A stretch of DNA of 64,000 nucleotides from Bdellovibrionota bacterium. Its GTDB lineage: Bacteria; Bdellovibrionota; Bdellovibrionia; Bdellovibrionales; JAMPXM01. Below are positions 40,363-43,159 of the stretch, piece after piece. A program made the position numbers and the translations under genes. Location: NCBI GenBank assembly GCA_963170185.1, contig CAUJGS010000104.1, forward strand, positions 1 through 64,000, in the 5' to 3' direction. Positions within the stretch are counted from its first letter, which is position 1. Every line of letters begins with the position of its first letter. The notes beneath the pieces are model-generated. The model was not told the origin of the DNA. It saw only the letters and a list, made by a program, of their open reading frames with translations, and did no database searches.

Positions 40363-40884
40363 TTACTGTACCAAGAACTCGCCGAAGTAAACGTCTTTGA
40401 CCACGCCCTGACTAAGCGAACGATTTAAGGTCACAGCGATCTGGTCCTTCAGAAACAACTTCCCCTGAATCGTCTCGACGTCATCGTAGGTCTTCGTATT
40501 AAGGATTCGAACGATCGAGTCACGAGCAGCCGGACTGTTGCGCACAATCTCTTCGAACCCATCTTTGTCGAGCATCTCCAGCGTCAAAGTCACACGAATG
40601 ATCCGTCGCGGTTGCCCCTCGAGGTTCACCGTAAAGGTCGGCATGGTGTAGAGGACAGAATCACGAACACCTTCCGTCTCACGGGTCAGTTTCAAATCTT
40701 GAATCGCAGCAGGTTCGCGCACACTCGGTGGGTGCCAGCCCAAAGTCGCCTTAAAAGTCAGAAAGGCACCGATTCCAAGTACCGAGAAATTCACTAAAAC
40801 AAACAGCGGCAACATGAGTTTGTTCACTTTGCTCGGCTGCTCGCCTTCGGCTGGAGCCTTCTGTTTTTCTTCGGCCATTGCCAC
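40363..40884 (-). CDS. fliL: FliL-like flagellar basal body-associated protein
   Basis: Single N-terminal TM, YTMPTFTVNLEGQPRRIIRVTLTLEMLDKDGFEEIVRNSPAARDSIVRILNTKTYDDVETIQGKLFLKDQI. Confidence 0.75.
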   Translation of the reverse strand: MAMAEEKQKAPAEGEQPSKVNKLMLPLFVLVNFSVLGIGAFLTFKATLGWHPPSVREPAAIQDLKLTRETEGVRDSVLYTMPTFTVNLEGQPRRIIRVTLTLEMLDKDGFEEIVRNSPAARDSIVRILNTKTYDDVETIQGKLFLKDQIAVTLNRSLSQGVVKDVYFGEFLVQ

Positions 40885-41014: not shown

Positions 41015-42133
41015 GTGATGTTTCGAAACCGCTCATATTCCAACTCATCGGCCACCGGCCTTGGCGCTCACTACCTTTTCACTTCGGTGATCACACTCGC
41101 GGCTTTGGCAATGGCGAATCCCCCAAACACCGCATCGGCCAACACCACAACTACCGCCGAGGATTCGGCCGGTCGAGATTCCGAACCACAAAAGATTTGG
41201 GCCAAGGACTCTGTCCCCAAAAGTATTTTGGCGATTCCAACAACGGGCACGTACTACGCCCCCTATATCTTCGTCGTCGATAAGTCCGATCGCTCACTTG
41301 AAATCTGGAAACAGACTCGACCGACTCCGACGTCTTTTGAAATCACACGCGTTCAAAGCTATCCCGCCGATCTCGGCAAAAACGCCGGTGACAAAATCGC
41401 CGAGGGAGACCACAAAACGCCTGAAGGTATTTATTTTCTACTAGAAAAACTTGAAGGCGCCGGACTCGACTTCAAACTCTACGGCAATCGCGCCTACACG
41501 ACGAACTACCCGAACCTCTTTGACAGCCTCGATGGAAAAACCGGAAGCGGAATCTGGCTCCACGCCGTTCCCGACAATGTCCCACTGACGCGCGGAAGTC
41601 GCGGCTGTGTCGTCGTACGCAATGACGTGGTCGTCACTCTTGACCCTTATGTCCAGCTGGGAAAAACACCCATCGTTATATCCGATAAAATCGATCCTCG
41701 CCCCTTCAAAGAATTCCAAGCCGAACAGGCGCGACTACAAAACTGGTTGGAATCCTGGCGCGCCGCTTGGGCCGCCAAGGATCTCGAGCGCTACATGAGT
41801 TTCTACGACGAGGACTTCCGTTCCGCTGGCATGAAGAAGGCCGATTGGCGCACCTACAAAGAGCGTCTCAACAAACAATATAAGACCATCTCAGTTGCCC
41901 TCTCCGAACCAATCGGAGTTGAGCACCGTGGACGAGCTATTGTTCGCTTCATTCAAAATTACGCCAGTGATCAAGTCAGCGATTTGGGAGAAAAGACTCT
42001 CCACTTGGTGAATCGCAATGGCAGCTGGAAAATTCTCTCCGAGGAATGGCGAGCTGATTCGTCAGATGCCGCTCGCCAAACAGTCGTCGCTGCCAATCCG
42101 ACAACGACACCCAGCCAACCCACAGCTCACTAA
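41015..42133 (+). CDS. L,D-transpeptidase/carboxypeptidase (YkuD) with C-terminal NTF2-like domain, Csd6/Pgp2/Bd1075-like
   Basis: YkuD catalytic segment GIWLHAVPDNVPLTRGSRGCVVVRND; C-terminal LQNWLESWRAAWAAKDLERYMSFYDEDFRSAGM...GSWKILSEEW resembles NTF2/SnoaL. Confidence 0.8.
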   Translation: MMFRNRSYSNSSATGLGAHYLFTSVITLAALAMANPPNTASANTTTTAEDSAGRDSEPQKIWAKDSVPKSILAIPTTGTYYAPYIFVVDKSDRSLEIWKQTRPTPTSFEITRVQSYPADLGKNAGDKIAEGDHKTPEGIYFLLEKLEGAGLDFKLYGNRAYTTNYPNLFDSLDGKTGSGIWLHAVPDNVPLTRGSRGCVVVRNDVVVTLDPYVQLGKTPIVISDKIDPRPFKEFQAEQARLQNWLESWRAAWAAKDLERYMSFYDEDFRSAGMKKADWRTYKERLNKQYKTISVALSEPIGVEHRGRAIVRFIQNYASDQVSDLGEKTLHLVNRNGSWKILSEEWRADSSDAARQTVVAANPTTTPSQPTAH

Positions 42134-42136
42134 CTC

Positions 42137-42346
42137 CTAATTAAGCCCCTCGTTTTCGAGGTCGACGCGAACGACGTTGTCCGCAAGATCAGGCAAAGAT
42201 TCGAGATGCTTTTTCAAATCTTCTTTCGAGAGACGCTTACGGCTGACGTTCAGATCGATGAGACGCTTATCAAACTTCAAGCGTTCGATCTCGACCGCCA
42301 ATGATTTCGATGCTCCCGTTGTCGAACTGACGATTTTCCCAGACAT
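42137..42346 (-). CDS. Small hypothetical protein (69 aa)
   Basis: Compact charged ORF filling the gap between the YkuD and rhomboid genes. Confidence 0.5.
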   Translation of the reverse strand: MSGKIVSSTTGASKSLAVEIERLKFDKRLIDLNVSRKRLSKEDLKKHLESLPDLADNVVRVDLENEGLN

Positions 42347-42361
42347 GTTTACCGTCCTCTA

Positions 42362-43159
42362 TTAGTTCCAGTATTTGGGTCCATCCGGATCAGTCGGCTT
42401 ATCGCCACCACCTTCCGAACCCTTTTCGTTGTCTACCACGAGCTTCAGTCCCCGTCCACGCTTGGTCGACTTATTGCGCCAACGCCGCTGCTGAAGCCAT
42501 GTGTAACCCCTTAGAAAAACAAAACCCGAAACGATCCCGCCAAGATGGGCGAGATTCGCCTCACTTGACCCGCCAATGCCGCTATTGAGCAGCGTCGCGA
42601 CTTCCACGGCCCCAAGGATCAAAACAAACCACTTGGCCCGCATCGGGAAGACCATCATGAAATAGACGATGCGTTCGCCAAAGAGGATCCCATAGGCGAG
42701 CATCAAGCCAAAAACGGCTCCAGAAGCACCCACGACCGGCGTCGTCCACCCCGTAAAGGTTTGCGTCACCGCTCCATAGATCGCCATGACTAAGACGTAG
42801 AGAACTCCTGCCCCCGCACCGGAGAAGAGATAAAACGCCAAGAAGAGCTTCGAGCCCCAGCGGCTCTCAAGCTCCGACCCCAGCCACCAAAGCAAGAGCA
42901 TGTTGAACAAGATATGAAAGAGATTGGTCGAGTGCAGAAACTGATATGTGAAAACCTGCCAGACGAAAAACTTTTCGATCACCGAAAGCGGAACAAGCCC
43001 GAGGCCATACGTGATATGAGGCTGACCGAGGAAGTACTTCTCCACGATCACCTGCAAGACCAGCCAAACCACGACGCAGATCCCAATCATCCATTTCACA
43101 ACGGGAGTGATTGGAACCATTGCGTTCCACTGCACCGATCCTTGGCCGCGATTTCCCAC
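42362..43159 (-). CDS. Rhomboid-family intramembrane serine protease
   Basis: LLWWLGSELESRWG, VGASGAVFGLMLAYG (GxSG) and AHLGGIVSGFVF catalytic His. Confidence 0.93.
   Translation of the reverse strand: MGNRGQGSVQWNAMVPITPVVKWMIGICVVVWLVLQVIVEKYFLGQPHITYGLGLVPLSVIEKFFVWQVFTYQFLHSTNLFHILFNMLLLWWLGSELESRWGSKLFLAFYLFSGAGAGVLYVLVMAIYGAVTQTFTGWTTPVVGASGAVFGLMLAYGILFGERIVYFMMVFPMRAKWFVLILGAVEVATLLNSGIGGSSEANLAHLGGIVSGFVFLRGYTWLQQRRWRNKSTKRGRGLKLVVDNEKGSEGGGDKPTDPDGPKYWN

Follow-up and report, generated by a model that had tools for sequence, protein, structure and literature searches.

The gene at positions 41,018–42,133 of the window (the whole 64,000-nucleotide stretch of DNA that was analysed, from an uncultured member of the Bdellovibrionales) is, as judged from sequence, an orthologue of Bd1075, and it very probably encodes a periplasmic L,D-carboxypeptidase that makes tripeptides from tetrapeptides at one side wall and so bends the cell. 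Bd1075 is the wall-trimming enzyme that curves the cell of Bdellovibrio bacteriovorus, and its activity, targeting and deletion phenotype have been described (PMC8938487). The first-pass annotation had called the product "Csd6/Pgp2/Bd1075-like". Since residues, gene order and the gene tree agree with each other, this label can be sharpened to Bd1075 orthologue.

Gene, Start Codon and Domain Organization

The open reading frame at 41,015–42,133 on the plus strand comprises 372 codons and has two equally good starts, the ATG at 41,018 and, as an alternative, the GTG at 41,015. Residue numbers are counted from the ATG unless stated otherwise, and Pfam ranges from the GTG. The following features are considered:

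40,363–40,884, minus strand: FliL-family gene, divergent upstream neighbour kept in the order, a context marker
41,018–42,133, plus strand: Bd1075-orthologous L,D-carboxypeptidase gene, 371 residues from the ATG at 41,018
41,018–41,143, plus strand: Sec-type signal peptide region, predicted from hydropathy, with a helix at residues 19–32 in the model
41,264–41,680, plus strand: YkuD catalytic domain with H182, A183, C197, V199 and the D-Ala pocket residues Y155 and W180
41,735–42,046, plus strand: NTF2-like Cds6_C domain with Y259, F267, K281, K326, E342 and Y315 (equivalent to Bd1075 Y274)
42,044–42,049, plus strand: codons of E343–W344, equivalent to Bd1075 E302–W303 by alignment
42,137–42,346, minus strand: small conserved open reading frame of 69 residues, convergent downstream neighbour, a context marker
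42,362–43,159, minus strand: rhomboid-family gene, the next kept neighbour, a context marker

A chance open reading frame at 41,015–42,133 was ruled out, because a match to the protein was found in 290 of the 369 genomes of the phylum, a Cds6_C domain occurs in 283 of the 369, usually in one such protein each, and the structural model has a mean pLDDT of 88. Sigma-70-like promoters and terminators were sought around the gene, and none scored above shuffled sequence.

Residues 19–33 are hydrophobic and are followed by ASA, which fits a Sec signal peptide by hydropathy; cleavage after ASA, at residue 41, is possible. Pfam places YkuD at 84–222 (E 2.3e-13) and the NTF2-like Cds6_C at 241–344 (E 7.8e-21), both in GTG numbering and above cut-off. 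The catalytic motif reads WLHA...RGSRGCVVV and contains H182 and C197. The catalytic segment H...SRGCVVV and the NTF2-like C-terminal region, both pointed out in the first-pass annotation, are thus borne out, the latter by Cds6_C and by the fold match described below. The same applies to the proposed Csd6/Pgp2/Bd1075-type architecture, which is found in the Pfam domain order and in the fold over both domains.

Predicted Structure and Comparison with Solved Proteins

The AlphaFold2 model, calculated from a 42-row alignment, has a mean pLDDT of 87.9; nearly all of both domains scores above 90, and residues 33–60 have no secondary structure. Among solved structures, that of Bd1075 is closest in sequence (7o21; E 2.5e-84 over residues 58–370), followed by Csd6 (E 1.9e-31) and Pgp2 (E 3.7e-23). 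Foldseek ranked them in the same way: 7o21 was the best match (E 1.4e-33, TM 0.92 on target), and TM on target was 0.71 for Csd6 and 0.70–0.71 for Pgp2. Below these three proteins the top 50 matched the NTF2 domain alone, with one exception. The structural comparison suggested at first reading therefore found both Csd6 and Bd1075, by sequence and by fold, with Bd1075 first.

Bd1075 (7o21; PMC8938487) shares 43.3% identity with the window protein over 307 aligned positions, together with domain order, fold, catalytic residues, Val two residues after the catalytic Cys (C+2), Y274, the W303 extension, an N-terminus without the dimer motif, and the gene neighbourhood. Besides the loop described below, the window protein differs in its longer N-terminal region and in its host, which the order places in a different family. 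At 31.5% identity, Csd6 of Helicobacter pylori (4xzz; PMC4599014) has the same YkuD and NTF2 folds, the Tyr/Trp of the D-Ala pocket and the NTF2 pocket residues, but it differs in having Ala at C+2, Gly after the catalytic His and dimer helices, and in the absence of the W303 extension. Pgp2 of Campylobacter jejuni (6xj6; PMC8038945) is 28.9% identical; the architecture and the pocket of Y233, F242, K257, K307 and E324 are kept, whereas Pgp2 has Ala at C+2 and the dimer motif and ends before W303.

Diagnostic Residues

In Bd1075, the catalytic residues are H141, A142 and C156, accompanied by an unusual V158 and by Y274 at the base of the NTF2 pocket; W303 lies in a C-terminal extension required for convex-face targeting in B. 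bacteriovorus (PMC8938487). All six residues are kept in the alignment with the window protein, as H182, A183, C197, V199, Y315 and W344. With A183 after the catalytic His and V199, not Arg, at C+2, the protein falls within the YkuD-NTF2 L,D-carboxypeptidases, which are recognized by Gly, Ala or Ser after His. It also has Y155 and W180, the counterparts of Csd6 Y133 and W158, a D-Ala pocket that sets L,D-carboxypeptidases apart from DpaA (PMC10653827).

Mutants of the NTF2 pocket of Pgp2 (Y233, F242, K257, K307 and E324) failed to restore helical shape (PMC8038945). Their equivalents in the window protein, Y259, F267, K281, K326 and E342, are all kept, and these five residues are invariant in the family wherever the column is filled. 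Other positions are less constant and are points against the Bd1075-type reading: the crystal-contact loop P107/K108 of Bd1075 is replaced by A/G, and the equivalent of Pgp2 E107 is variable, being Glu in the window protein and Arg in Bd1075. The Csd6/Pgp2 dimer motif is absent from the N-terminus, as in Bd1075, and the protein is probably monomeric.

Gene Neighbourhood and Phylogeny

The gene is flanked on one side by two M16 peptidase genes and the FliL-family gene, and on the other by the small open reading frame and genes of rhomboid, glyoxalase, HIT, ribosomal protein S1 (rpsA) and cytidylate kinase (cmk; called by inspection), all of them on the minus strand. Among the 73 named loci of the class, most show this order, give or take single genes, and so does B. 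bacteriovorus strain kdesi (L103). The 69-residue product of the small open reading frame (42,137–42,346, minus strand) gave no Pfam match; its gene adjoins that of the rhomboid protein in a large part of the order.

In a 75-row gene tree, the protein groups with its own genus plus one other member of the family (100, starred), and this branch lies inside a 41-row clade of the class (98, starred) that includes Bd1075, as expected from vertical descent. Very long branches dominate a second tree, built from the YkuD domains alone and including those of the other YkuD proteins encoded in the genome, so that ordinary L,D-transpeptidases (Ldts) cannot be placed in it; from this tree, use was made only of the starred set with Bd1075, to which the window protein belongs. 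For the window protein, the analysis itself shows the domain make-up, the predicted fold, the diagnostic residues, the orthology and the gene order. The gene is a clear addition to the known Bd1075 family and does not represent a new kind of system.

Proposed Function and Alternative Readings

The steps of export, D-Ala cleavage, targeting to the side wall and bending of the cell rely on what has been reported for Bd1075, Pgp2 and Csd6. By this analogy, the protein would leave the cytoplasm by Sec export, and its NTF2-like domain would bind peptidoglycan and hold the enzyme on one lateral wall. There, Cys197 and His182 of the YkuD domain would remove the terminal D-Ala of tetrapeptide stems to give tripeptides, and such uneven trimming would alter the mechanics of that wall, so that the cell bends. 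The second YkuD and NTF2 protein of the same genome, discussed below, could share or replace this role, which counts against the curvature role proposed here. The genome also has one bactofilin gene (G000:C29:36565-36849, plus strand), a member of a family that contributes to cell shape in Helicobacter too.

It may be supposed that the Bd1075-orthologous enzyme has no curvature role in this organism and serves general wall turnover or a helical, as opposed to vibrioid, shape. B. bacteriovorus is the only organism tested (PMC8938487), helical shape is set by Csd6 and Pgp2, and the family extends through a large part of the phylum and into organisms outside it. In our opinion this is nevertheless unlikely, because every targeting-related residue of Bd1075 is kept, Y274 and W303 included.

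The YkuD domain and its catalytic Cys and His would also suit an ordinary L,D-transpeptidase that forms 3-3 cross-links or attaches lipoproteins. Canonical enzymes of this type carry Arg two residues past the catalytic Cys, as do two of the nine YkuD proteins of this genome (SHGCVRM and AGCIRL), whereas the window protein has Val there. It also has the Tyr/Trp pocket of L,D-carboxypeptidases (Y155/W180) and belongs to the starred set with Bd1075, and no Ldt appeared in the Foldseek top 50. Grouping with ordinary Ldts, named at first reading as an outcome that would speak against a curvature enzyme, is thus not observed, and this explanation is rejected as highly improbable and largely refuted.

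A DpaA/YafK-type amidase that frees outer-membrane lipoprotein from peptidoglycan is hardly credible and is likewise rejected: DpaA/YafK/LdtF proteins share the YkuD catalytic core, and the window protein matches NCBIfam LdtF_DpaA_YafK (NF040599) weakly, but at 22.2 bits against a cut-off of 365, and it has an NTF2 domain, absent from DpaA, and Trp in the pocket where DpaA has Met (PMC10653827), in a genome with a separate DpaA-like protein on contig C43. From its sequence, the C43 gene (G000:C43:5656-5946, minus strand, locus L008) probably encodes a DpaA/YafK-type amidase. Its product matches PDB 8ikr, which we take to be a DpaA/YafK/LdtF protein, with E 1.1e-62.

A Second YkuD and NTF2 Protein

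The genome encodes a second protein with YkuD and Cds6_C domains, of 288 residues (G000:C71:1134-1997, minus strand; loci L010/L121). Within the genus, four of the five genomes have it, and so does G267 from another family; otherwise it is found among proteins of other classes in a set of 15 (99, starred) of the 75-row tree, and this nested position suggests horizontal gain. Its D-Ala pocket is changed, with Trp replaced by Met and Tyr by Phe, and Phe stands at the W303 position; the NTF2 pocket is kept. It can be tentatively proposed, with considerable doubt, that the genus shapes or tethers its envelope with two such enzymes, the inherited Bd1075 orthologue and this protein with the altered pocket and W303 position and its closest relatives in other classes, the latter maybe cutting another bond, such as the lipoprotein link that DpaA cuts, with the NTF2 pocket still serving to place it.

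Distribution of the W303 Extension and Natural Losses

W303 has been stated to be conserved among Bdellovibrio homologues and absent from other L,D-carboxypeptidases (PMC8938487). In our data, 80 distinct sequences from the class extend to this column and 78 of them have Trp there, as do eight of nine sequences of family f12, which belongs to another class. A Trp of this type was also found in Fluviispira, Spirobacillus and records labelled Aminicenantes and Nitrospirae (loci with it outside Bdellovibrio: L116, L117, L119, L120 and L134–L141), and the two traits, Val at C+2 and the W303-type Trp, also occur in lineages outside the Bd1075 orthologue group. The extension is thus far more widespread than has been published.

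Five near-complete and otherwise syntenic genomes, drawn from those of the order without a homologue, lack the gene: a profile search found no trace of it between the FliL and rhomboid genes in G183 (L177), G202 (L178), G201 (L179), G203 (L180) and G247 (L181). The two flanking genes remain close together in all five, FliL being inverted in G201. These candidate natural knock-outs span four genera and three families.

Conclusions

The wide occurrence of W303, the clean losses at the locus and the second YkuD and NTF2 protein with a changed pocket go beyond the published work consulted. What was a curvature enzyme of a single predator is now a family in most sampled genomes of the phylum, with a neighbourhood conserved across the order. 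The losses open a comparative test, in which the genomes without the gene should belong to straight cells and those keeping it to curved ones. As the side-wall targeting Trp also occurs outside Bdellovibrio, targeting to one side of the cell may be an old and widespread trait.
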